Of a DNA stretch of 64,000 nt, positions 42,517-60,856 are shown one piece after another (positions within the stretch are counted from its first letter, which is position 1; each line of letters opens with the position of its first letter). Both the position numbers and the translations under genes were made by a program. Under the pieces are notes generated by a model that was not told the origin of the DNA, ran no database searches, and was given only the letters and a program-made list of their open reading frames with translations. Source of the stretch: Candidatus Acetothermia bacterium (GTDB taxonomy: Bacteria; Bipolaricaulota; Bipolaricaulia; Bipolaricaulales; Bipolaricaulaceae); contig JANLFW010000006.1 in the NCBI GenBank assembly GCA_024653305.1, positions 1-64,000 of the forward strand, in the 5' to 3' direction.

Positions 42517-43578
42517 CTACTTCGGCGAGCCGACGATGCCCTCCGCCAGCCAGTCGAACTTCCCCATGTCCAGGGGACCCCACGCCGTTCCCTCCGGGAT
42601 CTTGATCTCTCCCGTCTGGTCCTTGATCGGACCGGCAAACGGCTGGAGCTCGCCCGAGACGAGGTTCTCCTTGTACTGGAGGACGGTCTGCTTCACGTCT
42701 TCCGGCACCCGCGGCCCGAATTCGCCCAGGGTGAGGAACCCTGCCTCCAACCCCCGGCGGATGTGTCCGCTCACGAACTCGCCCGCCAGAACCTGCTGGG
42801 CCACCTCGACGAAGAAGTCCCCCCAGGTCAGGCCAAGGCCGGTGATCCACGCGGTGGGCGCGAACTGCTGCACCGCCAGGGACGGGTAGCCCACGAAGAA
42901 CTTCCCGGCTGCCTCCACCGTTTGGGCGACCGCGATCGGGGAGTCGAGGTGGGAGCCGATCACGTCGCAACCCTGCTGGAGGAGGGCCTGCGTGGCGGCC
43001 ACTTCCTTCGCCCGATCGAGCCACGCCCCGGTGACCACGAACACGGTGGTGACGCCTGGGTTCACCGCCCGGGCGCCGAGGTGGAACGCGTTGCAGTTCC
43101 CAAGCACGTAGGCGTTGGGCATCCCGCCGATGAACCCGAGCTTGTTCGTCTGGGTCATGAGCCCGGCCGCGACCCCAAGCACGTAGTACGCGAACTGAAC
43201 GTTGCTGAAGTAGGTTCCAAAGTTGGGGGCGAGCATGTAGCCGCCAGGGTGCATGAACTGCACGTCCGGGTACCGCTTGGCCAGGTTGAGCGCCGGGAAC
43301 ATGTAGCCGAACCCCGCCGGGAACAGGAGCTTGGCCCCCTGGAGGATCATGTTCTCCAGCACCGCCTCCGCCTCCCCTTCGGGAACGTTTTCCGCAAACA
43401 GGATCTGGACGCAGGGCATCTCTTCCTTGAGGGCCATCAGGGCGTCGTACTGCGACTGGTTGTACCCTGCGTCGTCCTTCGTCCCGCCGATGATCATCCC
43501 CACCGTGAGGCAGGGCTCTGCCAGGGCCCCCAGGCCCACCACCGCCACCGCCAGCATTGCCACCAGTGCACGTTTCAT
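42517..43578 (-). CDS. BMP-family ABC transporter substrate-binding protein (first system)
   Basis: 353 residues with a cleavable signal peptide ending ALA before EPCLTVG. The fold is that of Bmp/PnrA purine-nucleoside-binding proteins: GMIIGGTKDDAGYNQSQYDAL, FPAGFGYMFPALNLAKRYPD, KLGFIGGMPNAYVLGNCNAF and GCDVIGSHLDSPIAV. PnrA-type proteins bind nucleosides; related ones bind other small ligands. Lying with a PucR regulator and the FdrA set, this one may serve purine-derived compounds such as ureides, which is inference. The typical LD/FND nucleoside contacts differ from those of the second system, so the ligand probably differs too. Confidence 0.9.
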   Translation of the reverse strand: MKRALVAMLAVAVVGLGALAEPCLTVGMIIGGTKDDAGYNQSQYDALMALKEEMPCVQILFAENVPEGEAEAVLENMILQGAKLLFPAGFGYMFPALNLAKRYPDVQFMHPGGYMLAPNFGTYFSNVQFAYYVLGVAAGLMTQTNKLGFIGGMPNAYVLGNCNAFHLGARAVNPGVTTVFVVTGAWLDRAKEVAATQALLQQGCDVIGSHLDSPIAVAQTVEAAGKFFVGYPSLAVQQFAPTAWITGLGLTWGDFFVEVAQQVLAGEFVSGHIRRGLEAGFLTLGEFGPRVPEDVKQTVLQYKENLVSGELQPFAGPIKDQTGEIKIPEGTAWGPLDMGKFDWLAEGIVGSPK

Positions 43579-43658
43579 CTCCGATCCCCTCCTCAAGTTC
43601 GCTTTCAGAGTTCCCTCTCCTTCCTCAGTCCCGCTGGGTTTTGCCCGGCTCTCACCCC

Positions 43659-44552
43659 CTATTCGCTTCCGAAGTACACCCGGCCCAAGCTCGCCGGGGC
43701 CACGTGGCGCACCCCCCGGCCCCAGACGAGGAGCACAAGGAGGGTCAAGGCGTACGGGATCATGTCCAAGATGAACGCCGAGATCCCGATCCCCTGGGCC
43801 TGGAGCTGGAGCTGGAGCACCACTGCTCCCCCGAAGATGAGGGCGCCCACCACCGCCCGGAGGGGATTCCACCGGGAGAAGATCACGAGCGCAATGGCGA
43901 TGAACCCGCGCCCGGCCGTCATCCCCTCGCTCCAGGTGCCCGTGATCCCCACCGCGAGGTGGGCCCCGCCCACCGCCGCCAGAAGCCCCGCCAGGGCGGC
44001 GGCCGCGTACCGCACGCGGGATGGCGAAACGCCAGCCGCGTAGGCCGACGCCGGGCTCTCCCCCACCGCCCGCACCCGCAGCCCCCAGCGGGTTCGGTAC
44101 AAGGTGAACCACATGAGCGGTGCCAAGAGGAACGCCAGGTACACGAGAAGGTCGTAGCGGAACGTGAGGGACTGGGGGCCGAGGAGCGGGTACTTCGGGA
44201 GGGACGGGGCCATCTGCCCCACGTAGGGCTTCCCGATGAGGGCCGACAGCCCGATCCCGAAGAACATGAGGGCCAGCCCTGCCGCGAGCTGGTGGGCGCT
44301 CCGGTGCACGACGAGCCACGCGTACACGAGGTTCGCCGCCAGCCCGGTGGCCCCCGCGGCCAGGACCCCCACCCAGGCGTCCCCCGCCAGGCGCGACACG
44401 GCAAAGCTCACCGCCCCCCCCAGAAGCATCAGCCCCTCCAGACCCAGGTTGACCATGCCCGTGCGCTGCTCCACCACCTCACCCACCGTGGGATAGAGGA
44501 TGGGAGCGGCATAGAGCAAGGTCCCGGACAGCCACGACAGGAGCCAGCTCAT
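43659..44552 (-). CDS. BMP-system ABC transporter permease, YufQ-like (first system)
   Basis: 297 residues, eight or more membrane helices. Typical family stretches are GMVNLGLEGLMLLGG, RTRWGLRVRAVGESPASAYA and TAGRGFIAIALVIFSRWNP. Forms the translocation pore with the next permease upstream in the operon. The ATG overlaps the neighbouring stop (ATGA). An 80-base gap separates it from the binding-protein gene. Confidence 0.92.
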   Translation of the reverse strand: MSWLLSWLSGTLLYAAPILYPTVGEVVEQRTGMVNLGLEGLMLLGGAVSFAVSRLAGDAWVGVLAAGATGLAANLVYAWLVVHRSAHQLAAGLALMFFGIGLSALIGKPYVGQMAPSLPKYPLLGPQSLTFRYDLLVYLAFLLAPLMWFTLYRTRWGLRVRAVGESPASAYAAGVSPSRVRYAAAALAGLLAAVGGAHLAVGITGTWSEGMTAGRGFIAIALVIFSRWNPLRAVVGALIFGGAVVLQLQLQAQGIGISAFILDMIPYALTLLVLLVWGRGVRHVAPASLGRVYFGSE

Positions 44553-45583
44553 CGCCTCACCCCCTTCCCCAGGGGCTTGGCTAGGACGGTGAACAGGATG
44601 AGGGCCATGAGCACGTTGACCGCCGCGAAGGGGAGCTGTTGCGTGATCTGGAGCGTGAACCCGCTCGCGGCGATCAGGGCCATCAAGAATGCCATGAGGA
44701 GAATGCCCACGGGGTTGGCAAAGGCGAGCCAGTTCACGAGGAACCCCATGAACCCGTAGCCGGGGGAGATGGCCAACTTCAGTCGGCTGTGGATCGCGGC
44801 GACCTCGGCAATCCCCGCCAGCCCCGCCAATGCCCCCCCCAGCGCCATGGCGGCGACCATCCATCCCCCCACGGACAGGCCCAGGCGCCGGGCTGCCTCC
44901 GGGTTCCCCCCCACGGTCTTCAGTTCCAGGCCCCACCGGGTCCGGGCCACGCCGTACCCGTACAGGAGGAGGGCCGCCAGCCCCAAGGCGAACCCCAGGT
45001 GCAGCCGGGTCCCCCCCACGAGGATCGGGAACCGCGCGGCGGGGGGAATCTCCGCGGTCTGGGGGTAGATGGCGAACTCCGCTGCCCGCCACGGCCCGAA
45101 CACGAAGTACCCCACGATGAGGGGGGCAACGTAGTTCAGGAGGAGGGTGGTGATCGTCTCGTTCATCCAGCCCCGGGCGCGCAGCACCCCCGGCACGAGC
45201 CCCCACGCCGCCCCACCGGCCATTCCCGCCAGGATCACCACGGGCAGGAGGACGGGCCGGGGGAGTCCGCCCAGGTTCAGGGCGGCCCAGGTGCCGACGA
45301 GGGCCCCAACCATGAACTGCCCCTCCGCCCCCACGTTGATCAGCCCAGCCCGGAACGGGATCGCCACCCCCAGCGCGGTGAGGAGAAGGGGGCTCATCCG
45401 CACCAGGACCTCCGCGAGGCCCCGCGGGTTCTGGAGGTTGATGCGCACGATGTCTTGGTAGGCGCGGACGGGGTCCTTTCCCTGGAGCAGGAGGAACAGG
45501 CTGAACACCCCAACGATCACCCCCACCATGACGAGGAGCCTCAGAACAGACCAGCTCAGCCGGGCGTTGAGCCAGCTAGGCAT
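44549..45583 (-). CDS. BMP-system ABC transporter permease, YufP-like (first system)
   Basis: 344 residues with about nine membrane helices. Family markers: PFRAGLINVGAEGQFMVGAL, GALRARG-type LVPGVLRARGWMNETITTLLL (split by charged loop) and RTRWGLELKTVGGNPEAARR. Pairs with the YufQ-like subunit. Its start overlaps the ATPase gene by 8 bases. Confidence 0.92.
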   Translation of the reverse strand: MPSWLNARLSWSVLRLLVMVGVIVGVFSLFLLLQGKDPVRAYQDIVRINLQNPRGLAEVLVRMSPLLLTALGVAIPFRAGLINVGAEGQFMVGALVGTWAALNLGGLPRPVLLPVVILAGMAGGAAWGLVPGVLRARGWMNETITTLLLNYVAPLIVGYFVFGPWRAAEFAIYPQTAEIPPAARFPILVGGTRLHLGFALGLAALLLYGYGVARTRWGLELKTVGGNPEAARRLGLSVGGWMVAAMALGGALAGLAGIAEVAAIHSRLKLAISPGYGFMGFLVNWLAFANPVGILLMAFLMALIAASGFTLQITQQLPFAAVNVLMALILFTVLAKPLGKGVRR

Positions 45584-47102
45584 GGGCCACCCCCGCCCCG
45601 GTCATCGCCCGGCCCACCTCGACCAGGCTCGCCTCCTCCGGGGAGAACTCGCCCACGATGCGCCCCCGGAACATCACCACCACGCGATCGCACACGGTGA
45701 ACAGCTCACTCAGGTCCTCGGAAATGAGGAGCACCCCCTTGCCTTGGTCCTTCGCCGCCAGAAACGCCTGACGGACGGCGTTGGCGCTTCGCACGTCCAA
45801 CCCCCGGGTGGGGTACAGCCCCACCACCAGGTGGAAGGAGCGCCCCAGCTCCCGGGCCAGGACCAGCCGCTGGAGGTTCCCTCCGGAGAGGTTCGCGGCG
45901 CGGGCCCTGTCCGGGAGGGGGTCAATCCCCAAGCGGGAAAAGCCCTCCTGGAGGAACCCCCGGGCCCTCGACCAATCCAGGCTCAACCCTCCCCAGCGGC
46001 TGAACTGCCTCGGGTCCATGAGGACGAGGTTCTCCAGGGTCGAGAACCACGGGACGACCGCCATGGCCAGCGGGTCCTCGGGGATGAACGCCAACCCCCG
46101 GCGCACAAGCCTCCCGGTGGGCCACCCGGTGACGTCCCGGCCCAGGAACAGCTTCCGCCCGTGGGTGATGCGGACCAGACCGAGGATCGCGTCCCCCAGC
46201 TCCCGCTGCCCGTTCCCCGACACCCCGGCCACGCCCACGATCTCCCCCGCCCGCACGGAAAGGTTCACCCCGTCCAGGGCGGGGGCCATGCCCACCGGCC
46301 ACGTGCTCACACCCCGCAGCTCGAGGATCGCCTCCCCAGGGGGCGGCCCGCCCCCGCGACGCGTCACGTCGGCAAGGCGCTCCCCAAACATCAGGTTCAC
46401 CAGGCCCTCCTCGGTGACGTCGGCCGCGGGAACCGTGTCCACCACCCGCCCCCGCCGCATCACGGTGATCCGGTCCGCGCACGCCCGGGCCTCGCGGAGC
46501 TTGTGGGTGATGAAGATCAGCGCATACCCCCCCTCGCGCAGGCTGGCGAACGTCCTGAACAGGGCCTCGACCTCATGGGGCACGAGGACCTTCGTGGGTT
46601 CATCGAACACCAGGACCCGTGCCTGGGAGAGGAGGAGCTTGAGGAGCTCGACCCGCTGCTGCTGGCCCACGGACAGCTGCCAGACCGGGACATCGGGGTC
46701 GAGCTCAAGGTGGTAGCGGCGGCTCGCCTCGACGACCGCCCGGCGCAGCCGGCGGGGGGGGAGCACCGCCGGGACCCTGGTCATGAACAGGGCCACGTTC
46801 TCGGCCACGGTGAGGGCCGGAAGAAGCGTGAACCCCTGGAACACCATGCCGATCCCCAGCCGCCGGGCATCGCGGGGCGAACGGATGGACACGGGCTGCT
46901 CGTCCAGGAACACCGACCCGGAGTCCGCCCGGTAGAAACCGTACAGGATCTTGACCAGGGTGCTCTTGCCCGCCCCGTTCTCCCCCAGAAGCCCGTGGAC
47001 CTCCCCTGGGTAGACCTCGAGGCTCACCCCGTCGTTGGCTACCACGCCGGGAAACCTCTTCGTGATCTGGGACAGCCGCACAACCGGCCGCCGGTCGGTC
47101 AT
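45576..47102 (-). CDS. BMP-system double-ATPase subunit (first system)
   Basis: 508 residues with two ABC domains in one chain. First domain: Walker A GENGAGKS, signature LSVGQQQR, Walker B VLVFDEPTKVL. Second domain: degenerate Walker A GVSGNGQRE and signature LSGGNLQR, as usual for the sugar/nucleoside importer ATPases. ATG 47102 with a G-rich site upstream; a longer upstream extension is rejected. First gene of the transporter operon, 87 bases below the pucR stop. Confidence 0.94.
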   Translation of the reverse strand: MTDRRPVVRLSQITKRFPGVVANDGVSLEVYPGEVHGLLGENGAGKSTLVKILYGFYRADSGSVFLDEQPVSIRSPRDARRLGIGMVFQGFTLLPALTVAENVALFMTRVPAVLPPRRLRRAVVEASRRYHLELDPDVPVWQLSVGQQQRVELLKLLLSQARVLVFDEPTKVLVPHEVEALFRTFASLREGGYALIFITHKLREARACADRITVMRRGRVVDTVPAADVTEEGLVNLMFGERLADVTRRGGGPPPGEAILELRGVSTWPVGMAPALDGVNLSVRAGEIVGVAGVSGNGQRELGDAILGLVRITHGRKLFLGRDVTGWPTGRLVRRGLAFIPEDPLAMAVVPWFSTLENLVLMDPRQFSRWGGLSLDWSRARGFLQEGFSRLGIDPLPDRARAANLSGGNLQRLVLARELGRSFHLVVGLYPTRGLDVRSANAVRQAFLAAKDQGKGVLLISEDLSELFTVCDRVVVMFRGRIVGEFSPEEASLVEVGRAMTGAGVAHA

Positions 47103-47187
47103 CGCCCCCCCTTGGGACACGGCGATTCTCCTGGCACGAACACCCCTGCCCCAGGGCACAGGGGCGACAAGCCTCCCCAAACCACCT

Positions 47188-47204
47188 TGTCACTTAGTGA
47201 CAAC
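47188..47204. promoter_or_regulatory. Perfect 17-base palindrome at the pucR stop, upstream of the transporter
   Basis: TTGTCAC-TTA-GTGACAA overlaps the pucR stop codon and lies about 90 bases before the ABC ATPase start. The symmetry and place make it a candidate operator controlling the transporter and fdrA genes. A second imperfect repeat (CCCCTG ... CAGGGG, 47146-47167) lies between it and the ATPase. Confidence 0.4.
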
Positions 47205-48869
47205 CTCGGGGAAGGCCAGGGGGAGCAGGTGGAGGGAGATCTCGAGGGCGAGGCGGGTGGAAGGATCTTCAAGGGCGGGGCCGAGGAGCTCCTGGAGGCG
47301 GCGCAGCCGGTACCGGGCGGTGTTGTAGTGGATGCCCAGGGCGTGGGCGGTCTGGCGGAGGTTCTGCCCATGTTCGAGGTACGCGCGCAGAGTGCCCAAA
47401 AGGGCAGCGGACCGCTTCGCGCGCAGAACCGGCCCCAGGGACTCCCGACAGAAGCTGGCCAGGTCCTCCCGGGACTGCACCCCGGACAGGAGGCGGAACA
47501 GGCCCAGCTCCTCGTAGCAAGTCACCGTCCCCTTCCCCTTCGGCTGGACGAGCCTCCCCAGCTCGAGGCTTTGCATCGCAGCCCGGTAGCCTTCGGCGAA
47601 CCCCTCCACCGTCGTGGTCAACGGTCCTACCCCCATGGACACGGAGTGGGGAGGGTTCTCGGTCCCCACGCGCTGGCATACCTCCCGCAGGGCCTGCGCG
47701 ATCGCCGCCCGGTCGGTGCGGAGCCCGCCCACCGGGAACAAGGCCACCAGCCGCGTCCCCAGGCGCCAGAACACGGCCCTGGGGTTCAGGGTGCGGACGT
47801 ACCGGCGCGCCAGGTGCAGACTCGTGTCAATCGCGCTCCGGCTGCGGTCCTCCCCGTGCGCGAGCACCTCTCCCAGGGGAAGGTCCGGGGCGGCCACCAC
47901 CACGTAGAACGGCGGGTCCAGGGAGAGGCCCATCTGGCGCGCCAGGTTCACGGCCCGGGCCCCGGCCCCCGGGGCAAGCAGCGCCTCGAGGACCTCGTGT
48001 TGGAACTGCTGCTCCACCTGGCTCAGGGCCCGCAGCTCCATCATCTTGAGGGCCGCCACGGTGGCCCCATGGTCCAGGGCCACCCGCACGGCGTAGGGGA
48101 CCGAGGGGGAAAGGGCCCCTCCCACCAGGATGTAGCCAAGGGCCATCGTGCTGGCGTGGATCGGATGGGCCACGATGGTCTGCCTCCCCCGGGGCCCAGC
48201 GACCTCCCACACCTCCGCCCCCTCCCACCCCAGCTCCGCCGGTGCCGCAGGGGGGAGATCCTCCCGCAAGTACAGGTCCCCCGACGGGTCGCGCACGAGG
48301 ATCTCCCCCTCCCCAAACGGGGCGCTCTGCCCAAGCACGCGCCGAAACCGGTCGATCACCGCCACGGGGTGACCCACGGCCTCCGCGATGAGGCGGGCGA
48401 TCTCCGCGAAGCTCCCCCCACGCAGCACGAGGTCCAGGAACCGGCGCAGAAGGGACTCCGACTGCCGCAGCTCACTCGCCTGGATGTGGAGGATGCGGCT
48501 CGTGAGGGGCTGGATGATGTCGATGAACGAGACCTTGGGGGGCAGCTCGATGAGGGGGAAGTCAAGGCGGTCCGCAACCTCGATCATCTCGGGGGGAATG
48601 CGATCCACGTAGCTTCCGGGGGTGATGGCAAGGCCCACCAGGCCCTTGGCGGCCAGCTGGGGGACGAGCTCCGCCAGCGCTTCGGGGTTGTCCCGCAGGG
48701 GGTACAGCGTGGTGACGAGGAGCTCGCCGGGACGGACCCACTCCAGGATGTCCGGCACCTCCATCACGTTCACCGACTCCACGACCCGGTCCAGACCCCC
48801 CTCGCCGGCGAGGACCCTCGCCCGGCGCAGGGGTTCGGCGAGTTGGAGACCTTCGCGGAGCGTGAGCAT
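47190..48869 (-). CDS. PucR-family transcriptional regulator
   Basis: 559 residues. N-terminal PucR ligand domain: MLTLREGLQLAEPLRRARVL and ELLVTTLYPLRDNPEALAEL; middle GAF/GGDEF-like CdaR domain; C-terminal helix-turn-helix with LEHGQNLRQTAHALGIHYNT and ARYRLRRLQELLG. PucR controls purine catabolism in Bacillus, and PucR-family proteins regulate many amino-acid and nucleobase pathways. The next genes on the strand are the BMP importer and FdrA set, probably its targets. The ATG is 12 bases below the 3' end of tRNA-Ala with no visible Shine-Dalgarno sequence. Confidence 0.92.
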   Translation of the reverse strand: MLTLREGLQLAEPLRRARVLAGEGGLDRVVESVNVMEVPDILEWVRPGELLVTTLYPLRDNPEALAELVPQLAAKGLVGLAITPGSYVDRIPPEMIEVADRLDFPLIELPPKVSFIDIIQPLTSRILHIQASELRQSESLLRRFLDLVLRGGSFAEIARLIAEAVGHPVAVIDRFRRVLGQSAPFGEGEILVRDPSGDLYLREDLPPAAPAELGWEGAEVWEVAGPRGRQTIVAHPIHASTMALGYILVGGALSPSVPYAVRVALDHGATVAALKMMELRALSQVEQQFQHEVLEALLAPGAGARAVNLARQMGLSLDPPFYVVVAAPDLPLGEVLAHGEDRSRSAIDTSLHLARRYVRTLNPRAVFWRLGTRLVALFPVGGLRTDRAAIAQALREVCQRVGTENPPHSVSMGVGPLTTTVEGFAEGYRAAMQSLELGRLVQPKGKGTVTCYEELGLFRLLSGVQSREDLASFCRESLGPVLRAKRSAALLGTLRAYLEHGQNLRQTAHALGIHYNTARYRLRRLQELLGPALEDPSTRLALEISLHLLPLAFPEVVTK

Positions 48870-48881
48870 CGGTGAAGGGGG

Positions 48882-48955
48882 TAGAGGCGAGCGGGATCGA
48901 ACCGCCGACCTTCGGCTTGCAAAGCCGACGCTCTCCCAAGCTGAGCTACGCCCCC
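48882..48955 (-). tRNA. tRNA-Ala (anticodon TGC)
   Basis: Minus-strand acceptor GGGGGCG pairs with CGCCTCT (two G-U pairs), the anticodon stem TCGGC/GCCGA encloses TTTGCAA (anticodon TGC), and the T arm GGCGG/CCGCT carries TTCGATC. No CCA encoded. It directly precedes pucR. Confidence 0.94.
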
Positions 48956-49075: not shown

Positions 49076-49893
49076 ATGGACGACTCGCTCGATGTCGTGG
49101 TCCTGGCGGCGGGGAAGGGGACGCGGATGCGCTCCCGCCGCCCCAAGGTCCTCCACCCCCTGGCCGGGCTCCCCCTCCTGGAACACGTCCTGCGCGCGGC
49201 GTTCTCCCTCTGCCCCCGGCGCGTGGTGGTCGTCGTCGGCCACGGGGCAGACGAGGTGCGGGAGGCGTTCTCCGCGCGGGGAGTGAGGTTCGTGGACCAG
49301 GGAGAGCCCCGCGGCACCGGCCACGCAGTCCTCTCCGCCCAGGCGGAGGTGAGCGCCCAGAGGTTCCTCGTCCTCCCGGGGGACGTCCCCCTTGTCCCCC
49401 CGGAGGCCCTGCGGGCGCTCCTCCGCTGCCACCGGGAGCGGCGAGCCACGGTCTCGCTCCTCACGGCGAGTCCCCCTGACCCGGGCCCGTACGGCCGAGT
49501 GGTCCGCACGGAGGACGGAAGGCCCGTGCGGGTCGTCGAGGCCGCGGATGCAAGCCCGGCGGAGCTTTCGGTCGGGGAGGTGAACTCCGGGATCTGGTGC
49601 CTGGAGAACGTCCCGGACCTGTGGCGGGCGCTGGCCGCCCTGTCCACCGCCAACGCCAAGGGCGAGCTCTACCTCACCGACCTCGTGGCCCACTTCGCCC
49701 CGGCCGGGAGGGCCGCGGCCCTCCGTTGGCCCTGCCCCGACGACCTGCGGGCGAGGACACGGTCCTCCTCCCCGGGACCCACCTCCTGGGCCGGACCGCG
49801 CTCGGGCGGGAGTGCACGGTCGGCCCGGGGGCGTTCATCGGGACCAACGCTTCCCTCGTCGCCCCGATCCACATCGGGGAGGGCGAGGTGGTG
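49076..49893 (+). pseudogene. glmU: Bifunctional GlmU (UDP-GlcNAc synthesis), remnant with internal deletions
   Basis: The N-terminal uridylyltransferase domain is well kept for about 227 residues: VVVLAAGKGTRMRSRRPKVL, GTGHAVLSAQAEV, LPGDVPLVPPEAL, EVNSGIWCLENVP and NAKGELYLTDLVAHF. Then sequence is lost and the frame shifts; another frame gives GEDTVLLPGTHLLGRTALGR and ECTVGP, which jumps directly to GAFIGTNASLVAPIHIGEGE, a part that normally lies about 100 residues later in the left-handed beta-helix. It stops where an inverted HAD-HD remnant begins near 49890. The acetyltransferase half is therefore destroyed; the first domain could still be made with a junk tail. Confidence 0.8.
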
Positions 49894-50412
49894 GGCAGCC
49901 ACGGCCAGGGAATGCCGGACCACGCTCGCGGGCACACCGTGTTCGGCCAGAAGCTCCAAGCATGTGTGGAGATCCGGCAGGCGCAGATCCGAAAGCGCGG
50001 CGGGCAGGGTGGCCATGTCCCGGATCTCGGCGTCGTGCAGCGGATGAACGCACGGGCACGGATCGCCGGAGGGGTTGAACCAAATCGCCCAGAGTCCGGC
50101 CTGCTTGGCCCCGGCGACGTCGGTGGCCTACCCGTCACCGACCATTGCCGCCTCGGCCGGAGGGCAGTTGAGCCGCGCGAGCACGGCGTGGAAGAACGCG
50201 GGGTCGGGCTTCGCTGCCCCGAGGTCGCGGGCGGTGACCACAACGTCGAGGTAGCGGTCCAGATGAACGCGGGCCAGGGCCTGGCGAACCATCCCTGGGA
50301 GTTCCCGCATCACCGTGCCCCCCCAGTCGAAGCACACCGCGTGGACGACGTTTGTTCGCGATCCGTTCAACGTTGGTCCTCCGGGCGGCGAGTGTATCCC
50401 CCGCTCGCCCAA
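49882..50412 (-). pseudogene. HAD-HD phosphatase remnant (paralogue of the 34.1 kb gene)
   Basis: One frame carries VHAVCFDWGGTVMRELPG, then with about 25-30 residues missing VRQALARVHLDRYLDVV and ARDLGAAKPDPAFFHAVL, AAMVGDG, a TAG stop, then ATDVAGAKQAGLWAIWFNPS, DPCPCVHPLHDAEIRD and the start of the HD domain VVRHSLAVAAHHLA, where it breaks off into antisense glmU sequence. The stop sits where the intact paralogue has tyrosine (GDSYGSDV). Clear decay: internal deletion, nonsense codon and loss of the HD core. Confidence 0.8.
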
Positions 50413-51225: not shown

Positions 51226-52035
51226 ATGGTGCAGCCGCGACTCCCAACCCTCGGCATCGCCCCCGGCGACCTTCCCCCGTACGCGCTCCTGCCCGGCGAT
51301 CCGGCCCGCGCCGCGCGCATCGCGGCGCGGCTGGATGGGGCGGAAGAAGTGGCCAAGAACCGCGAGTTCCACGCCTACCGCGGCACCTGGCGGGGCCTGC
51401 CGGTGGGTGTGGTCTCCACCGGGGTCGGCGCCCCCGGGGCGGCGATCTGCGTCGAGGAGGCGATCCGCGCCGGGGCCAAGGTCCTGATCCGGGTGGGGAC
51501 CGCGGGGTCGCTCCAGGATCGCGTGCGGGATGGTGACCTGGTCGTAGCCCTCGGCGCGGTGCGGGCGGAGGGGACCACGCCGCGGCTCCTGCCCGTGGAG
51601 TTCCCGGCCTTGAGCGATCCGGACGTGGCCGCCGCCCTTTGGGAGTTGTCTGGGGAACGCGGCCTTCCTGTCCATCGCGGCGTGGTCGTCACCCTCGACG
51701 CGTTCTACCGCGGGGTCCTGGACCTTGGGCTGGACACGTTCTCCCGGAGTGGGGCCCTGGCGGTGGAGATGGAGTGCGCGGCCGTGTTCTGCGTGGCTGC
51801 CCTGCGCGGGGTCCGGGCCGGGGCCATTCTCGCCATCGATGGGGACGCCCGCCGGGCCACACTCGGCGACTATAATCCCCATCGGGACACCGTCCGGCAG
51901 GCCATCGATCGGGAGATCGGGGTGGCCCTGGAGGCGCTCCTCAAGATCGGTGGGGGGAAGGAGGTGGGAAAGGGGCGTAGGCGATCTTCCCTAGCTCACA
52001 CCTTGAAAGGAGGACCAACAAGGAGGAAGGAATGA
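51226..52035 (+). CDS. Uridine/purine nucleoside phosphorylase family protein
   Basis: Splits nucleosides with phosphate into base and (deoxy)ribose 1-phosphate. Family motifs: LPGDPARAARIAARLDG, the phosphate/ribose contacts VSTGVGAPGAAICVEEAI and IRVGTAGSLQDRVRDGDLV, and the nucleoside-binding SGALAVEMECAAVFCVA. It is closest to uridine phosphorylases (NP-I, hexameric), though base preference cannot be fixed by eye. 269 residues with a roughly 20-residue basic C-terminal tail. Its stop overlaps the nucleotidase start by 4 bp, placing it first in a salvage operon. Confidence 0.88.
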   Translation: MVQPRLPTLGIAPGDLPPYALLPGDPARAARIAARLDGAEEVAKNREFHAYRGTWRGLPVGVVSTGVGAPGAAICVEEAIRAGAKVLIRVGTAGSLQDRVRDGDLVVALGAVRAEGTTPRLLPVEFPALSDPDVAAALWELSGERGLPVHRGVVVTLDAFYRGVLDLGLDTFSRSGALAVEMECAAVFCVAALRGVRAGAILAIDGDARRATLGDYNPHRDTVRQAIDREIGVALEALLKIGGGKEVGKGRRRSSLAHTLKGGPTRRKE

Positions 52036-53729
52036 GGAAGTGGTTGTTAGCGATGTTGGTGGTGGTCGCTCTTCCGACCCAGGTCACCTGGGCCGAAGCC
52101 GATTGGACGATAACCATCCTTCATACGAACGATACCCATTCGCGGCTGGAGAACATGGCCCGGCAGGCCACACTGATCCAGGAGATTCGGGCGCAGGTCC
52201 CGGAGGTGATCCTCCTCCACGCCGGGGACGCGTTCCTGGGGACCCTCTACTTCACCGTGCACAAGGGGGCGGCGGACGCATGGGTCATGGACCACATGGA
52301 CTTCACCGCCATGGCCCTCGGGAACCACGAGTTCGACGAGGGCTCGGCGACCCTGGCCAAGTTCGCCGAGGCGGTGGGCTTCCCCCTTCTCTCGGCCAAC
52401 TTCGACTTCTCTCAGGACCCCCTCCTCGCCGGGGAGATCCTGCCCTACGTACTCGTGGACGTGGCCGGGAACCGGGTGGGGATCATCGGGCTCACCACCG
52501 AGGACACGGCGTGGAGCTCGAACCCTGGGCCGAACATCGCCATCGGCGACGCGTTCGCCGCCGCCCGGCGGGCGGTGGACGAGCTCACCGCCCAGGGCGT
52601 CACCGTGATCATCGCCCTGACCCACCTCGGTTGGGATCGTGACCTGGAGCTCGCCACGTCCGTGACCGGGATCGACATCGTCGTGGGCGGACACTCCCAT
52701 ACACTCCCTGCCGGGTACCCGGCGGTGGTGGAGCGCAAGCTCGTGAACATCAACACCGCCAGCGTGGACGAGCTTGTGGCCCTCCCCCGGATTGGCCCCA
52801 CGTTGGCCCAGCGGATCGTGGATTGGCGTACGTCCCGCGGGCCGTTCCAGAAGATCGAGGAGATCATGAACGTGTCCGGGATCGGTCCCGCCACGTTCGC
52901 CGCCATTCGGGATCGGATCGCGGTCGCGGACGTCCGCATCCCCACCCTGGTCGTCCAGGCCGGGGAGCACGCCCAGCACCTCGGTCGGTTGGAGGTGACG
53001 TTCGACGGGCAAGGGGTCCTGACCGGTTGGAACGGGGAGCTCATCCCGGTGGCCGAGGTACCCATGGACCCGGCGATCGAGGCCCAGCTCGCCGTGTTTG
53101 GCGCCCCCATCGCCGCCCTCAAGGCACAGGCCGTGGGGGAGACGCGGGTCGACCTGGACGGAGATAAGACCCGGGTGCGCACCCGGGAGACGAACCTCGG
53201 GAACCTCATTGCCGACGCGATGTTGTGGAAGGCGAAGGCTGCCGGGGCCCAGATCGCCATCCAGAACGGGGGTGGGATCCGGGCCTCCATCCCCGCCGGC
53301 GAGGTCACCCTGGGCCAGGTCATGGAGGTCCTCCCATTCGGGAACTACCTTGTGGTCCTCGACGTCACCGGGGCCCAGCTCCTCGCCGCCCTGGAGAACG
53401 GGGTGAGCCTGGTGGAGCAGGCCAAGGGGCGGTTCCCCCAGGTGGCCGGGATCCGGTTCACCTGGGATCCGGCCAAGGCCGCCGGGGAGCGCGTCGTGTC
53501 CGTGGAGGTGTGGACGGAAGAGGGCTGGCGGCCGATCAACCCCAAGGGCACCTACCGCGTGGCCACCAACAACTTCCTCGCCGGGGGCGGGGACGGCTAC
53601 GAGGTCTTCCTCGAGGCGCGGCAGGTCATCAACCTCGGGTTCGTGGACTACGAGGTCCTCGCCGACTACCTCCGCGCCCACTCTCCGGTGGCTCCGGAGG
53701 TGGAGGGGCGGATCGTGGAGCGGAGGTGA
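52032..53729 (+). CDS. Secreted 5'-nucleotidase with an inserted ComEA-like helix-hairpin-helix domain
   Basis: Signal peptide (residues 1-22). Metallophosphatase domain with ILHTNDTHS (D34, H36), HAGDAF, ALGNHEFDEG, LTHLGWD and GGHSHT. Between this domain and the C-terminal substrate-binding domain (TLVVQAGEHAQHLGRLEV, TNLGNLIADAML, IQNGGGIRASIPAGEVTLGQ, NNFLAGGGDGY) lies an extra block at about residues 236-298: KLVNINTASVDELVAL, PRIGPTLAQRIVDWR and GIGPATFAAI, a double helix-hairpin-helix as in the DNA receptor ComEA. It replaces the short loop after GGHSHT. Outside the cell it should strip phosphate from (deoxy)nucleotides; DNA binding by the insert is inferred. Followed by a BMP nucleoside importer. 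Confidence 0.92.
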   Translation: MRKWLLAMLVVVALPTQVTWAEADWTITILHTNDTHSRLENMARQATLIQEIRAQVPEVILLHAGDAFLGTLYFTVHKGAADAWVMDHMDFTAMALGNHEFDEGSATLAKFAEAVGFPLLSANFDFSQDPLLAGEILPYVLVDVAGNRVGIIGLTTEDTAWSSNPGPNIAIGDAFAAARRAVDELTAQGVTVIIALTHLGWDRDLELATSVTGIDIVVGGHSHTLPAGYPAVVERKLVNINTASVDELVALPRIGPTLAQRIVDWRTSRGPFQKIEEIMNVSGIGPATFAAIRDRIAVADVRIPTLVVQAGEHAQHLGRLEVTFDGQGVLTGWNGELIPVAEVPMDPAIEAQLAVFGAPIAALKAQAVGETRVDLDGDKTRVRTRETNLGNLIADAMLWKAKAAGAQIAIQNGGGIRASIPAGEVTLGQVMEVLPFGNYLVVLDVTGAQLLAALENGVSLVEQAKGRFPQVAGIRFTWDPAKAAGERVVSVEVWTEEGWRPINPKGTYRVATNNFLAGGGDGYEVFLEARQVINLGFVDYEVLADYLRAHSPVAPEVEGRIVERR

Positions 53730-53826: not shown

Positions 53827-54876
53827 ATGCGCAAGGGTTTGCTGTGGGCGTTGTTGATGGTCCTAGGTGTGGCGGTGGCCTTCGGTAGCATCCCCAAGAT
53901 CGGGCTGATCCTGGCCACGGGTGGTCTGGGAGACCGGTCGTTCAACGACCAGTCCTACTGGGGCGCCGAGCGGGCGGCCAAGGAGCTGGCGGCCAAGTAC
54001 GGGGTCCCGGTGGAACAGGTGTTCAGCTACGTGGAACCGCGGTCCATCGCCGACTACGAGGCGTTCCAGCGGGAGTTCGCCCGCTCCGGCGAGTACACGA
54101 TCATCGTGTGCATCGGGTTTGACCAGGCCCCGGTGCTGGAAGAAGTGGCGCCGGACTATCCGAACCAGTGGTTCGTGGTCATCGATGCCGTGGCCGCGGT
54201 CGGCAACGTGGCCTCCATCGTGTTCAACGACTGGGAGGAGGCGTTCCTGTGCGGGGTGGTGGCCGGGCTCTGGACCAAGACCGGCAAGGTCGGGGTGGAG
54301 GGCGGGATGGACATCCCCCTCATCCGCCGGTTCGTGCAGGGCTTCACCCAGGGCGCGATGTGGGCCAACCCCGCGATCACGGAGGGAGACGTCCTCGTGC
54401 GCTACGTAGGCGCCTGGAACAACCCCACCCTGGGGAAGGAGCTTGCACTTGAGATGTACCAGGCTGGGGCGGACGTGGTCTACGGGGCGGCCGGCAAGTC
54501 CCACCTTGGGGTGTTCGCCGCCGCCGAGGAGAAGCCCGGGGTATGGTGGGCCATCGGCACCGACGTGGACCAGGCCTGGTCCACCCCTGAGCACGCCGAC
54601 GTGATCATCGCCTCGGGCCTGAAGCGGGTGGACCTCGCCGTGTACACGGAGATCATGAAGGCGGTGGAGGGAACCTGGGCCCCCGGCGTCATCAGCTACG
54701 GCATGGCCGCGGAGGCCAAACTCGGCACCGGGATCGCCGTGGGCAGCGAGGATGCGCTCCCGCCCTACGTGGTCGCCAGCGCAAGCCAGGTCGCCATCCC
54801 CGCTGAGGTCGTGGCCAAGGCGGTCGAGGCCGCTCAGGGGATCCTCAACGGGACGATCGTGATCGAGCACGAGTAG
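53827..54876 (+). CDS. BMP-family ABC transporter substrate-binding protein (second system)
   Basis: 349 residues with an N-terminal signal sequence (MRKGLLWALLMVLGVAVAFG) lacking a lipobox cysteine. Strong PnrA/Bmp features: LILATGGLGDRSFNDQSYWG, GFDQAPVLEEVAPDYPNQWF, IDAVAAVGNVASIVFNDWEE and GVEGGMDIPLIRRFVQGF, including the aspartates and the FN motif that hold nucleosides in PnrA. A good GGAGG ribosome site precedes the ATG. The neighbouring phosphorylase and nucleotidase support nucleosides as ligand. Confidence 0.93.
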   Translation: MRKGLLWALLMVLGVAVAFGSIPKIGLILATGGLGDRSFNDQSYWGAERAAKELAAKYGVPVEQVFSYVEPRSIADYEAFQREFARSGEYTIIVCIGFDQAPVLEEVAPDYPNQWFVVIDAVAAVGNVASIVFNDWEEAFLCGVVAGLWTKTGKVGVEGGMDIPLIRRFVQGFTQGAMWANPAITEGDVLVRYVGAWNNPTLGKELALEMYQAGADVVYGAAGKSHLGVFAAAEEKPGVWWAIGTDVDQAWSTPEHADVIIASGLKRVDLAVYTEIMKAVEGTWAPGVISYGMAAEAKLGTGIAVGSEDALPPYVVASASQVAIPAEVVAKAVEAAQGILNGTIVIEHE

Positions 54877-54910: not shown

Positions 54911-56473
54911 ATGCCCGGCGTAGAAGAGACGCCAGGCGGAGCCCGGCGCATCTCTCAGGCCGTGCGCATGGAGGGGATCGTGAAGCGGTTCCCCGGCGTT
55001 CTGGCCAACGCCGGCATCGACTTTTCCCTGGACTTCGGCGAGGCCCACGGCCTCCTTGGGGAGAACGGGGCCGGCAAAACGGTGCTCATGAGCATCCTGT
55101 ACGGCCTCTACCAGCCCGATGCGGGGAGGATCTTCGTCCGGGGAACCCCCACCCGCATCGGAAGCCCCGCCGTGGCCATCCGCATCGGCATCGGCATGGT
55201 GCACCAGCACTTCATGCTCGTCCCCCGACTCACGGTGGCGGAGAACATCGCCGTGGGCTGGGAGCCCACCCGCGGGCCCCTGCTCGATCGCCGGGCTATG
55301 GTCCGCCGGATCGAGGCCTTGGTGGAGCAGTACGGGCTCGGGGTCGACCCCGAGGCCCGGGTGGAGGAGCTTGCGGTAGGGGAGCAACAGCGGGTGGAGA
55401 TCCTCAAGGCCCTGTACCGCGGAGCAGAGGTGCTGATCCTGGACGAGCCTACCGCCGTGCTCGCCGAGCAGGAGGCAGAGGCGTTGTTCGCCGCCGTGCG
55501 TGCGCTCAAGGAGCAGGGGAAGGCGGTGGTGTTCATCACCCACAAGCTCGACGAGGCGCTCGCCGTGTGCGACCGGATCACCGTGCTCAGAAAAGGCAAG
55601 AACGTGGGCACCCTTCCGGCGAGCGAGGCCACCGAAACCCAGCTTGCCGAGCTCATGGTCGGCCGGGAGGTGGTGTTCCAGGTACGGCCGGAACCGGTGG
55701 TGAGCGAGGGGCAGCCCCTGGTTGCGGTGGAGGGCCTCGTGGCCACGGACGACCGGGGGGTGGAGGCGGTACGGGGGGTGAGCGTTGTCGTCCACGACCA
55801 CGAGATCCTGGGGATCGCCGGCGTCCAAGGGAACGGCCAGAAGGAGCTGGTGGAGGCGATCTGCGGCCTCCGGCAGCCCCAAGCCGGCCACGTTTCCGTG
55901 GGCGGGCGCGACCTCACCGGGGCCAGCCCCCGGAAGCTCACCCGGGCCGGGTTGGTCCACGTCCCGGAGGACCGGCAGCAGCGGGGCCTCATCCTCCCGT
56001 TCACCGTGGCCGAGAACGCCATCCTCGGCCAGGAGTACGACCCCCGCTTCGCTATCGGCCCGTGGGCCCAGGCCCGCCGGAACATCGCCCGCTACGCCCA
56101 GGAGCTGGTGGAGCGGTTCTCCATCGCCGCCCCGTCGGTGCGCACCTCGGTGCAAGCCCTGTCCGGGGGGAACCAACAGCGGCTGATCCTGGCCCGGGAG
56201 CTCGGGCGCGGGCCACGGGTGGTGGTAGCCGTGCAGCCGACGCGGGGGCTCGATGTCGCGGGGATGGAGTTCGTGTGGAACCAACTTCTCGCCATGCGTC
56301 GCCAGGGGTGCGCGGTGCTTTTGGTGTCCATGGACCTGGACGAGGTGATGATGCTCTCGGACCGGATCGCGGTGATGTACCAAGGGGAGGTCGTGGCCGT
56401 GGTGCGACGGGGGGAGGCTACCAAGCGCGAGCTGGGGCTGTGGATGCTCAGGGGGAAGGGTGAAGTGGCTTAG
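54911..56473 (+). CDS. BMP-system double-ATPase subunit (second system)
   Basis: 520 residues, two ABC domains. First: Walker A GENGAGKT, LAVGEQQR signature, Walker B LILDEPTAVL and HKLDEAL. Second: GVQGNGQKE in place of Walker A, signature LSGGNQQR. The coding start at MPGVEETPGGARRI has GGGGAAGG upstream; the conserved part begins VRMEGIVKRFPGVLANAG. Stop overlaps the next permease by 14 bp. Confidence 0.94.
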   Translation: MPGVEETPGGARRISQAVRMEGIVKRFPGVLANAGIDFSLDFGEAHGLLGENGAGKTVLMSILYGLYQPDAGRIFVRGTPTRIGSPAVAIRIGIGMVHQHFMLVPRLTVAENIAVGWEPTRGPLLDRRAMVRRIEALVEQYGLGVDPEARVEELAVGEQQRVEILKALYRGAEVLILDEPTAVLAEQEAEALFAAVRALKEQGKAVVFITHKLDEALAVCDRITVLRKGKNVGTLPASEATETQLAELMVGREVVFQVRPEPVVSEGQPLVAVEGLVATDDRGVEAVRGVSVVVHDHEILGIAGVQGNGQKELVEAICGLRQPQAGHVSVGGRDLTGASPRKLTRAGLVHVPEDRQQRGLILPFTVAENAILGQEYDPRFAIGPWAQARRNIARYAQELVERFSIAAPSVRTSVQALSGGNQQRLILARELGRGPRVVVAVQPTRGLDVAGMEFVWNQLLAMRRQGCAVLLVSMDLDEVMMLSDRIAVMYQGEVVAVVRRGEATKRELGLWMLRGKGEVA

Positions 56474-57512
56474 GGAAATGGCCCCGGTGGCCGGGGCGAT
56501 CGCCCTCGCCCTGGGGGTAGGAGCTATCGTCACCGCTCTCACCGGCTACTCCGTGCCCGCGGTGTACCGGGAGCTCGTCCGGGGCGCGTTCGGGGGCAAG
56601 TACCAGCTGTTCCAGACGTTGACCCAAGCGACCCCGATCGTCTTCACCTCGCTTTCGTTCGTGATCGCGTTTCGTTGTGGCCTGTTCAACATCGGAGCGG
56701 AGGGGCAGCTCTACGTGGGCGCGTTCGCCGCGGCGTGGGCTGGGTTCACGTTGGAGCTTCCCCCGGTGCTGCATACCGTGGTGTGCCTGCTGTGTGGCGC
56801 CGTGGCCGGAGGATTGTGGGGCCTCGTTCCCGGGTGGCTGCGGGCCCGGCGCGGGGCGAACGAGTTCGTGACCACGATGATGCTCTCCTACGTGGCCATC
56901 TACCTCACGAGCTGGCTCGTCTCGCCCCGGGGGCCGTACCACGGCACCCAGTGGGCGAACCAGACGGTGCGCATCCTCCGCAGCGCGGAGCTGCCGCGGT
57001 TCATGGCCGGGGCCCAGCTGTCGTGGGGGATCGCGGTGGGGGCCATGGTGGCCGTGCTCGTGTGGTACTTCATCTTTCGTACCCCGCGTGGGTACCAAAT
57101 CCGGGCGGTGGGGCAGAACCCCCAGGCTGCCGAGTACGGGGGGATCGACGTATCGAGGAGCATGATCCTCGCCCTGACCTTGGCCGGGGCGCTCGCGGGT
57201 TTGGGCGGGGCGGCGGAGATCTTGGGCACCCACCGCCGGTTCATCGAGTTCTTCTCGCCGGGATATGGCTGGGACGGGATCGCCGGCGGGCTCATTGCCC
57301 GAGCTCACCCCATCGCCGCGATCTTCGCCGCGATCCTGATGGGGGCGCTCAGGGCGGGGGGGATGGCCATTGACCGGGCCGGGGTGGCGCCGGCGGACCT
57401 GGCGGCGGTGTTCCAGGGGCTGGTGATCCTGTTCGTGGTGGCCCCGGAGCTCATCCGCCACCTCAAACGGTTGGGTGCGCTAAGGAGGAGCCGTGTCCGT
57501 TCTGAGCCTTGA
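56460..57512 (+). CDS. BMP-system ABC transporter permease, YufP-like (second system)
   Basis: 350 residues, about nine membrane helices. Markers: AFRCGLFNIGAEGQLYVGAF, VPGWLRARRGANEFVTTMML, FRTPRGYQIRAVGQNPQAAE and FSPGYGWDGIAGGLIARAHP. GTG start inside the ATPase gene; overlaps the next permease by 20 bp. With its partner it forms the nucleoside channel. Confidence 0.93.
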   Translation: MKWLREMAPVAGAIALALGVGAIVTALTGYSVPAVYRELVRGAFGGKYQLFQTLTQATPIVFTSLSFVIAFRCGLFNIGAEGQLYVGAFAAAWAGFTLELPPVLHTVVCLLCGAVAGGLWGLVPGWLRARRGANEFVTTMMLSYVAIYLTSWLVSPRGPYHGTQWANQTVRILRSAELPRFMAGAQLSWGIAVGAMVAVLVWYFIFRTPRGYQIRAVGQNPQAAEYGGIDVSRSMILALTLAGALAGLGGAAEILGTHRRFIEFFSPGYGWDGIAGGLIARAHPIAAIFAAILMGALRAGGMAIDRAGVAPADLAAVFQGLVILFVVAPELIRHLKRLGALRRSRVRSEP

Positions 57513-58350
57513 ACTCCTCGTCTCCGCGCTGCGGCTGGCCACCCCCATTGCCCTGGTGGCCCTGGGGGAGACCTACTCCGAGCGGGCCGGGGTGATCAAC
57601 GTTGGGGTGGAGGGGATGGCCCTGGCCGGGGCGTTGACCACGGCCATCGTGGCCTACTTCAGTGGGAGCCCTACCTTGGCCCTGGTGGCGGCGATCGGGG
57701 TGGGGGCCCTCCTGGGGGCGCTCCACGCCGTCTGGAGCGTGTACCTCAGGGCGGACCACGTGGTGTCCGGCGCGGCCATCAACCTGTTGGTGGTGGGGTT
57801 CGCCCTGTTCCTCACCCGGGTCATCTGGGGCTGGCGCGGCACTTCCCCCTCCGCCCCCACCTTGAACGCCTGGATCCTGGTGGGCGCGGGCCTGTTCCTC
57901 ATCGCCCTTTCTCAGGTCTACATCTTCCGCACCCCGTGGGGCTTGAGGCTGCGGGTGGTGGGTGAGCACCCCCGGGCCGCGGACACCGCGGGGATCAACG
58001 TGTACCGGACCCAGCTAATCTACACCGTGCTAAACGGCGCCCTGTGTGGCCTGGCCGGGGCGTTCCTGTTCAACAATCTAGGGAGGTTTACCGACGGCAT
58101 GGTGGGGGGCCGCGGCTTCATCGGCATCGCGGCGATGGTCGTCGGCAACTACCGGCCCCTTCCCGCCCTTCTCGCCGCGTACCTGTTTGGGTTCGTGGAC
58201 GCCCTGCAGATGAGGCTTCAGGCGTACATCCCCTCCCAGTTCTCGCTGATGCTCCCTTACATCCTCACTGTGGTGGTGCTGGCCGGGTTCCTGGGCCGAA
58301 CCAAGGTCCCCAAGGCCCTGGGGAAGCCGTACGTGAAGGAGCGCGGGTGA
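57493..58350 (+). CDS. BMP-system ABC transporter permease, YufQ-like (second system)
   Basis: 285 residues, about eight membrane helices. Markers: YSERAGVINVGVEGMALAGA, FRTPWGLRLRVVGEHPRAAD, NNLGRFTDGMVGGRGFIGIA and AYLFGFVDALQMRLQAY. Starts at GTG. Last subunit of the importer; 253 bases without a recognised gene separate it from the nucleotidyltransferase gene. Confidence 0.93.
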   Translation: MSVLSLELLVSALRLATPIALVALGETYSERAGVINVGVEGMALAGALTTAIVAYFSGSPTLALVAAIGVGALLGALHAVWSVYLRADHVVSGAAINLLVVGFALFLTRVIWGWRGTSPSAPTLNAWILVGAGLFLIALSQVYIFRTPWGLRLRVVGEHPRAADTAGINVYRTQLIYTVLNGALCGLAGAFLFNNLGRFTDGMVGGRGFIGIAAMVVGNYRPLPALLAAYLFGFVDALQMRLQAYIPSQFSLMLPYILTVVVLAGFLGRTKVPKALGKPYVKERG

Positions 58351-58603: not shown

Positions 58604-59287
58604 ATGGGGTCCCGTGCTCGCGCGGAGGAAATCGTGGCCCGCGGGACGTACGGAGCCGCCCGACTTCGAATCGGGAGTGGCGGCCGCTTCTTTCTTACCG
58701 GTGGCACCGCCCTGGCCGAGTTCTATTTGGGGCACCGACGTTCCTTCGCCTTGGATCTCTTCACCGCAGAGGAGGGGCTTGTCCTGCCTTTCTCGCGCCT
58801 TTTCGAAAACCAGCTTGGGGATGCCGGGTTCGAAGTCCGGACGGTACGTCGGCGGGCAAGCTTTGCCGAGTTCACGGTGAAGATAGGGGCTGAGGAGGTG
58901 CGCGTACAGCTTGCTTACGATTCACCGTTTCGGTTCCATCCCCCGGAGGAGGCGGCGTTCGTCAGGGTGAACGATTTCGTGGATCTGGCGGTCGACAAGT
59001 TCTTGGCCTTTTTCGGCCGCGCCGAGCCCAGGGATGCGGTGGACCTTTTCTTCCTCCTTCGAGAGCCCGAACTCAAAGGGCTGATGGAGTTGGCCCGTCG
59101 GAAGGACCCCGGCTTTGATCCCTACTGGCTTGCCCAAGCGTTCCAGCGGGTGGAGGAATTCCCGGATGAGCCCGAGCGATGGCCGGTAGAGATGGTAGCC
59201 TCCTGGGATCCCCAGGAAATCAAGGCCCGATTCACTTGCCTTGCCCGTTCCATCCTTGAGGGCATCCAGAAAGGAGAACAAGGGTGA
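58604..59287 (+). CDS. AbiEii/AbiGii-like nucleotidyltransferase
   Basis: 227 residues with the DNA polymerase beta-like nucleotidyltransferase core of the AbiEii toxin/MenT family: [30 protein letters not shown] (the family's D-x-D appears as A-L-D), a downstream lysine in [11 protein letters not shown] and the partner [10 protein letters not shown]. The family includes tRNA-modifying toxins of type IV systems, but stand-alone members exist. No AbiEi-like antitoxin is visible upstream. The first 25 residues match the family poorly, so the start may be wrong or the N terminus lost. The stop overlaps mtnA by 4 bp, which is unusual for a mobile toxin gene. Confidence 0.75.
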
Positions 59288-60312
59288 TCAGGCCGGTTTA
59301 CTGGGAGGACGGGGCGATAAAGCTCTTGGATCAGATGAGGCTTCCGCAGGAGGAGGTGTGGCTTTCCCTCACCCGCTGGGGGGAGGTGGCGGAGGCGATA
59401 AAGAGCATGCGGGTGCGCGGGGCACCGGCGATCGGGATCGCCGCCGCCTACGGCCTCGCCCTGGCGGTCTGGAACCCCTCTCCGGGCAAGGCCCCCCGGG
59501 CCGCGTTCGAGGAGGCCGCGGAGGGCCTTTCCCGGACGCGCCCTACCGCCGTGAACCTGTTCTGGGCCATCCGCCGGATGGAAGGCGCATTCCGCCGACT
59601 TGCGGGTTCGGACCCAGGGGAGCTGCGCCGGGGGGTCCTCGCGGAGGCGGTACGGATCCACGAGGAGGACATCGCCGCCAATCGGCGGATCGGGGAGTAC
59701 GGGGCGGCCCTCCTTCCACAAGGGGCGCGGGTGCTGACCATCTGCAACACCGGGGCCCTCGCCACCGGCGGATATGGCACCGCCCTCGGGGTGGTGCGGG
59801 CGGCTTGGGAACAAGGGAAGCTCCGCGAGGTGTACGCGTGCGAGACACGCCCCCTCCTCCAGGGGGCGCGGCTCACGGCGTGGGAGCTCCTCACAGAACG
59901 GATCCCGTTTCGGCTGATCGTGGACGGGGCGGCAGGATGGCTCATGGCCCGGGGCGGGGTGGACGCGGTCCTGGTGGGGGCGGACCGCATCGCCAGGAGC
60001 GGCGACGTGGTCAACAAGATCGGCACCTATACCCTGGCCTGTCTTGCCCATCGTCATGGCATCCCGTTCTACAGCGCTGCCCCCACCTCAACGATCGACC
60101 TCGCCGTGGCCACGGGGGCGGAGATCCCGATCGAGGAGCGGGCGGAGGAGGAGGTGGTTGCGCCGCGCGGGGTCACGTTCGCCCCGCCCGGGGCACGGGC
60201 GTGGAACCCGGCGTTCGACGTGACCCCGGCGGAGCTCGTCACGGCCATCGTCACCGAGCGGGGGGTGATCCGGCCACCTTACCATGACACGGTCCCTGCG
60301 GCTCTGGCGTGA
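59284..60312 (+). CDS. mtnA: 5-methylthioribose-1-phosphate isomerase (also 5-deoxyribose-1-phosphate)
   Basis: Converts the ring-closed 5-substituted ribose 1-phosphate made by MtnP into the ribulose 1-phosphate. MtnA markers: [19 protein letters not shown], the catalytic cysteine in [20 protein letters not shown] and the aspartate in [20 protein letters not shown], then [13 protein letters not shown] and NPAFDVTP. 342 residues. GTG start overlaps the nucleotidyltransferase stop; the end overlaps the aldolase gene by 29 bp. Confidence 0.95.
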
Positions 60313-60856
60313 GCGGGTGACGGAGACCGCCCGGGAAATGGCTGCCCGTGGTCTGGTTCGGGGGAGCTCGGGGAACGTCTCGGTGCGGGTAGGGGACACC
60401 GTCCTCATCACCCCGACCCGCATCCCCTACGCGTACCTGCGGGCTCGTCAGGTGGTGGCCATTGACCTTGCGGGAAAAGCCCTGTCCGGGAGCGGCGGGC
60501 CGTCGTCGGAGTGGCGGTTGCACGTGGCCATCTACCGGGCCCGGGCGGACGTGCGGGCCATTGTGCATACCCACTCCCCGTACGCCACCGCTGTGGCCGT
60601 GCCCCTTCCCGAGCTTCCGGTGGCCCACGACGAGGGGGAGCTTCTGTTCGGCCGGGCGATTCCCGTAGCCCGACATGCCCCGCCGGGGACGTGGGATCTG
60701 GCCCACGCCGCGGTGGCCGCCTTGGGCGGCGGGAACGCCGTGCTCCTCGCCCGGCATGGCGCGGTGGCGGTGGGGTCGACCCTGCGGCAGGCCCTCGACC
60801 TCGCCGAGAAGCTGGAAGAAACCGCCCAGCTCTTCTCCTTCCGTTTTCCGGACTAG
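60284..60856 (+). CDS. Class II aldolase (adducin/fuculose-1-phosphate aldolase family), probable 5-substituted ribulose-1-phosphate aldolase
   Basis: 190 residues. Zinc ligands HTHSPYATA and RHGAVAVG, the SSEWRLH segment with the catalytic-type glutamate, and the phosphate-binding [13 protein letters not shown] are intact. Next to mtnA, this is the signature of the DHAP shunt, in which 5-methylthioribulose or 5-deoxyribulose 1-phosphate is cut to dihydroxyacetone phosphate and an aldehyde. No mtnB/mtnC/mtnD genes of the oxygen-requiring methionine salvage are seen, which fits an anaerobe. Confidence 0.9.

Follow-up and report, generated by a model that had tools for sequence, protein, structure and literature searches.

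The window, by which we mean the whole 64,000-nucleotide stretch of DNA analyzed here, carries at 52032-53729 on the forward strand an open reading frame of 565 residues, assigned with Pfam to a predicted 5′-nucleotidase of the UshA/CD73 family with an inserted helix-hairpin-helix (HhH) domain. A putative signal peptide (residues ~1-21; 52032-52094), with a basic start, a hydrophobic stretch, and WAEA and unstructured in the model at residues 11-21, is followed on the same strand by a metallophosphatase domain (residues 28-224; 52113-52703; PF00149, E 1.2e-12), a ComEA-type double HhH domain (residues ~236-301; 52737-52934; PF12836, TIGR00426, AlphaFold2, and Foldseek), and a 5′-nucleotidase C-terminal (substrate) domain (residues 368-526; 53133-53609; PF02872, E 9.4e-50). 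Metallophos and 5_nucleotid_C both score over the Pfam gathering score. HHH_3 spans residues 234-296 with an E value of 1.2e-20, and TIGR00426 (ComEA HhH repeat region, NCBIfam) exceeds its curated cut-off (54.8 versus 53.1 bits). With these domains and the metal-site residues below, an earlier sequence-only reading was right to propose a full secreted-type 5′-nucleotidase with a two-HhH, ComEA-like insert after GGHSHT.

The metal-site motifs are D34/H36, D66, N98-H99, H198, and H221/H223, which we take to be the metal ligands from what is known of UshA and CD73. All of these residues are invariant in the 16 inserted proteins aligned, and adding plain relatives leaves them invariant or close to it, H223 being absent from the invariant list for the 28 diverse rows. 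The C-terminal nucleotide-binding domain shows the same residue conservation as its counterpart in plain relatives, and conservation at the residue level supports the predicted 5′-nucleotidase activity. The NCBIfam UshA equivalog NF007109 scores 239 bits against a cut-off of 600, which would place the enzyme in the UshA superfamily outside that equivalog. TIGR01259 (comE) scores 65 bits over the whole protein against a cut-off of 152, as expected for a protein that carries a ComEA-type domain without being a ComEA. Gene content of the source genome was judged from family searches, which found the inserted nucleotidase as its sole 5_nucleotid_C protein.

Gene neighborhood

All genes of the cluster lie on the forward strand. 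The stop codon of a uridine-phosphorylase-like nucleoside phosphorylase gene (51226-52035; PF01048, 7e-43; TIGR01718 below cut-off) overlaps the nucleotidase start (ATGA). Downstream are genes for an ABC importer: a BMP/PnrA-type substrate-binding protein (53827-54876; PF02608, 1.5e-52), the double ATPase of this importer (54911-56473), and two importer permeases (56460-57512 and 57493-58350), the last three assigned by family profile searches. These are followed by genes for an MtnA-type sugar-1-phosphate isomerase (59284-60312; TIGR00512, 434 bits, cut-off 279) and a class II aldolase nearest to ribulose-1-phosphate and fuculose-1-phosphate aldolases (60284-60856; matched by NF053831, PRK08087, and further models, each under its cut-off). 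The MtnA assignment is firm; the phosphorylase and aldolase can be placed to superfamily level.

The order phosphorylase-nucleotidase-importer-MtnA-aldolase recurs in three genera (g1, g8, and g12), and several g12 genomes have a divergent importer (34-55% identity) at the same place in the cluster. The proposed connection of the nucleotidase, through its phosphorylase and importer neighbors, to nucleotide salvage and nucleoside import is well supported by this recurrence. In a genome of genus g5 (L180), a different phosphorylase-family gene lies immediately 5′ of the nucleotidase gene, genes for a KaiC/RadA-like ATPase and a DisA-like protein lie upstream, an MFS gene lies downstream, and no BMP importer was found among the genes scanned nearby.

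Three other features of the window were observed. Between permease 2 and mtnA, a forward-strand open reading frame of 227 residues (58604-59287) has a motif recalling AbiEii-type nucleotidyltransferases. On the reverse strand, about 5 kb from the cluster (42517-48900), open reading frame translations point to another putative BMP-type importer, made up of a binding protein, two permeases, and an ATPase and adjoined by a PucR-like regulator. A GlmU-like gene on the forward strand (49076-50047 and 49597-50000) has its N-terminal and C-terminal repeat parts in different frames near 49700; the frame change may be a frameshift, a sequencing error, or a sign of a decayed gene.

Structure and selection

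A whole-protein AlphaFold2 model built from a 28-sequence alignment has a mean pLDDT of 92.4. Block means within the insert are 84-96, and the insert folds as HhH with high confidence, which answers the structure-prediction check suggested with the earlier reading. Its helices (245-249, 256-269, 275-280, and 286-295) are flanked by strands 231-236 and 302-308, and the insert lies about a dozen residues past the metal-binding GGHSHT in both sequence and model. The helix linking the catalytic domains (347-365) lies well C-terminal of the insert. The insert is therefore not between the two catalytic domains, where it had been placed, and instead occupies the tip of a β-hairpin within the N-terminal domain. 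With Foldseek, the top match of the whole model is the Thermus 5′-nucleotidase 2z1a (E 1.2e-66, TM 0.73/0.81). Folded alone and without an alignment, the insert has a pLDDT of 72.9, and in Foldseek the insert alone matches the ComEA structures 8dss and 2duy (Geobacillus and Thermus). Like ComEA-type HhH domains (PMC9747964), it consists in the model of two motifs joined by a loop without a connector helix.

HhH1 (VNINTASVDELVALPRIGPTLAQRIVDWR; residues 238-266; 52743-52829) was delimited from the alignment of inserted proteins, the AlphaFold2 model, and PDB sequence matches, and HhH2 (residues ~275-296; 52854-52919) from the alignment and the model. Both hairpins that had been proposed are present, and the second reads GIG (283-285), which is invariant in the 16 inserts; the first, however, reads RIG (R253) rather than the usual GIG. 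Arg replaces this first Gly in 4 of 16 inserts, the source protein included.

The closest insert-less relative found (L033) reads GGHSHTLPKSYPTIITDDNIPTLIVQ where the inserted protein reads GGHSHTLPAGYPAVVERK, the HhH domain, and then RIPTLVVQ. L033 has YPTIITDDNIPTLIVQ over the stretch in which the inserted protein runs from YPAVVERK through the HhH domain to RIPTLVVQ. The insertion is clean, since L033 reads straight across the junction at which the nucleotidase carries HhH.

The insert is under purifying selection, with dN/dS values of 0.07-0.34 in ten pairs (Nei-Gojobori), which lie within the range of the enzyme parts (0.07-0.39); in most pairs the value for the insert is higher than that for the N-domain. 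The full HhH pattern and a near-constant length are kept across 60-96% identity. Positions without variation among the 16 inserts are N239, N241, A243, E247, L248, R266, and R293, together with the IG of hairpin 1 and the complete GIG of hairpin 2.

Distribution and origin

A query spanning the junction matched at full length in 22 of 100 Bipolaricaulota genomes, all of the source's family (genus g1, 2; g5, 12; g12, 6; g8, 1; g10, 1); several family members without the inserted nucleotidase are incomplete genomes. A 96%-identical copy is present in a metagenome-assembled genome named Bipolaricaulota, which places the host in that phylum. The check on spread proposed earlier thus points to one family: the HhH insert was found in 0 of the 78 best insert-less relatives in named genomes, and the architecture in 0 of 400 Chloroflexota and 0 of 399 Bacillota genomes, Bacillota matches being limited to the HhH part in open reading frames of ~140-380 residues. 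These two phyla and Bipolaricaulota were the ones searched by genome set, with searches that target one junction and could miss an insertion gained separately at a different site. Viral contigs yielded 35 relatives, which lie outside these counts. Among the papers covered by a literature search, none was found on the combination of 5′-nucleotidase and HhH.

In a tree of the catalytic parts, the inserted nucleotidases form one clade (support 100/96) with no insert-less member, and L033 neighbors that clade (95/88). This topology fits a single gain of the HhH domain, probably in a common ancestor of some, but not all, members of one Bipolaricaulota family. In a tree of HhH domains, which rests on few columns and leaves the donor unclear, the inserts form one clade separate from stand-alone ComEA-type domains (90/96). 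An HHH_3 survey of 11 inserted genomes found exactly two matches in each, the nucleotidase accounting for one and a site outside it for the other. The architecture is a real, conserved, lineage-restricted insertion in an otherwise ordinary 5′-nucleotidase.

Other sequences were noted during these searches. Four long HhH-bearing open reading frames (L192-L195) branch apart from the others in the insert tree as a clade of their own and probably represent Tex; Tex is also among the PDB matches of the insert. A record labeled Thermotoga sp. (DYGJ01000017.1, L032) contains an inserted nucleotidase at 68% identity, and the record name looks wrong. The junction segment occurs twice in one genome (G060:C1:13557-13964 and 15429-15836), the copies scoring equally, facing opposite ways, and lying within 2 kb of each other; either a duplication or an assembly artefact would account for this.

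Nucleic acid binding and location

HhH folds can have other roles besides binding nucleic acid. In tested ComEA proteins, a lysine after hairpin 1 is essential: Geobacillus ComEA K166A shows no DNA binding, B. subtilis K164A lowers transformation by more than 2 logs (PMC9747964), and Vibrio K63A is severely impaired (PMC3879209). This lysine aligns with L258 of the insert, and the position is Leu, Ile, or Tyr in 16/16 inserts, which tells against the earlier claim of DNA holding in the form first put forward, though every one of the 29 ComEA-type domains compared from the phylum has Leu there as well. The missing lysine is indecisive, a lineage-wide trait, because the phylum's own domains share it. 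Three residues on, R261 is Arg in 15 of 16 inserts and in 29/29 of the phylum's ComEA-type domains. R293 aligns with K199 of B. subtilis ComEA, the loss of which cuts transformation more than 100-fold (PMC9747964). The HhH2 lysine is retained in 1 of 16 inserts versus 17 of 29 phylum domains, and the net charge of the insert is about 0 (range, −3 to +2). Given the indecisive Leu, the retention of R261 and R293 set against the loss of the HhH2 lysine, the RIG hairpin, and the near-neutral charge, we hold the chance that the insert binds nucleic acid to be slightly short of even; this is the weakest step of the explanation below.

An outer membrane has been reported for Bipolaricaulota (PMC10665443). 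Given this membrane, the putative signal peptide, and the lack of a visible surface anchor on the protein, the nucleotidase is most likely periplasmic, a likelier place than the extracellular one previously proposed. Family searches of the source genome also found a separate ComEA of 128 residues, a ComEC gene, and one SNase-type gene with a signal-like start. Nucleases of the SNase type in general leave 3′-phosphates. Endonuclease_NS was found in 0 of 20 genomes, the source genome included.

Interpretation

The results above on domains and fold, the conserved metal site, the insertion and its clade, purifying selection, and gene neighborhood come from computation. The explanation we favor, at a probability of roughly 45%, is that a periplasmic 5′-nucleotidase is tethered on nucleic acid by its HhH insert and feeds the importer. 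The HhH domain would have been gained once, at the tip of a surface β-hairpin just past GGHSHT. The nucleotidase would remove phosphate from nucleoside monophosphates, and the HhH domain would most likely keep the enzyme on periplasmic nucleic acid, either incoming DNA or breakdown fragments, raising the local supply of substrate. The BMP-type importer would bring in nucleosides, its presumed substrates; the phosphorylase would free sugar-1-phosphate from them; and MtnA and the aldolase may pass this to central metabolism. Weighing against this explanation, besides the residue and charge features of the insert, are the g5 neighborhood that lacks the importer and a nuclease supply of which one putatively secreted SNase-type gene was seen. 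A more specific proposal, drawn from the ComEA and ComEC genes of the source genome, is that the enzyme couples natural transformation to feeding by riding incoming periplasmic DNA and dephosphorylating nucleotides from its degradation; we consider this improbable.

The insert could instead be a module for protein docking or self-association, positioning the nucleotidase by an envelope partner, such as the importer, a pilus, or the competence apparatus, and binding no nucleic acid. The near-neutral charge and the lack of lysines needed for DNA in tested ComEA suit such a module, and a T2SS protein K domain matches the same stretch weakly, below cut-off; yet the second GIG and the IG of the first hairpin are kept in every insert, as expected for contact with a phosphate backbone, and the phylum's ComEA-type domains likewise have Leu at the lysine position. 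We regard docking as rather unlikely. Less likely still, the insert would bind no ligand and be tolerated at the surface as decoration, with an effect on stability or folding only. A hairpin tip is the sort of place where an added domain does little harm, and the dN/dS of the insert mostly exceeds that of the N-domain, but the ratio is well below 1, the HhH pattern and length are maintained, and the inserted clade has no member that lacks the insert.

Very unlikely, in our judgment, is that the insert brings the end of a polynucleotide to the active site, with terminal phosphates of DNA or oligonucleotides being removed in addition to those of mononucleotides. The insert does lie about a dozen residues past the metal-binding motif, and its best PDB sequence match is EEPD1 (PDB 9yi2), a nuclease-fold protein with HhH domains; against this, the C-terminal nucleotide-binding residues are conserved as in plain relatives. 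Chimeric assembly or a gene-prediction artefact has a negligible probability and was rejected, since the same continuous reading frame is shared by 22 genomes in five genera and no point in its favor was found; homologues with the same insertion, sought as a check on misassembly, exist. With an insert that folds as HhH, neither of the two outcomes named beforehand as refuting the earlier reading came about.

Tethering on nucleic acid is a reasonable hypothesis, and a single insertion followed by retention suggests an enzyme held on DNA while feeding an importer. A module of nucleic-acid-binding type, fixed in a mononucleotidase beside nucleoside-import genes, offers a concrete way into the question of whether DNA taken up by bacteria also serves them as food. 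The nucleotidase further provides a clear-cut example of one domain inserted at the tip of a hairpin, and close relatives without the insert are available for comparison.

Comparison with known systems

In a resemblance to the DHAP shunt (PMC10986504) and the haloarchaeal nucleoside pathway (PMC9700705), a phosphorylase, an MtnA-type isomerase, and a sugar-1-phosphate aldolase are encoded together in one neighborhood. The source cluster differs in adding a nucleotidase and a BMP importer and in having no kinase gene noted.

EEPD1 resembles the nucleotidase in joining ComEA-like HhH domains to a phosphoesterase-type enzyme, here an endonuclease/exonuclease/phosphatase domain. It differs in being a eukaryotic repair protein with two HhH domains near the chain N terminus rather than inserted, and its catalytic fold is not that of 5′-nucleotidases. 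The insert is like the HhH domain of ComEA (8dss, 8dfk, 2duy; HHH_3, TIGR00426) in profile, length, fold, and its two loop-joined motifs. Unlike ComEA, it lacks the membrane anchor, the oligomerization domain, and the lysine essential in tested proteins, and it is embedded in an enzyme. Both catalytic domains, the metal-site residues, and the overall fold are shared with UshA, CD73, and Thermus 5′-nucleotidase (2z1a), whereas none of the 78 plain relatives of the UshA/CD73 type has the HhH insert. The 5′-nucleotidase family is already known; what is new is its HhH-inserted form.
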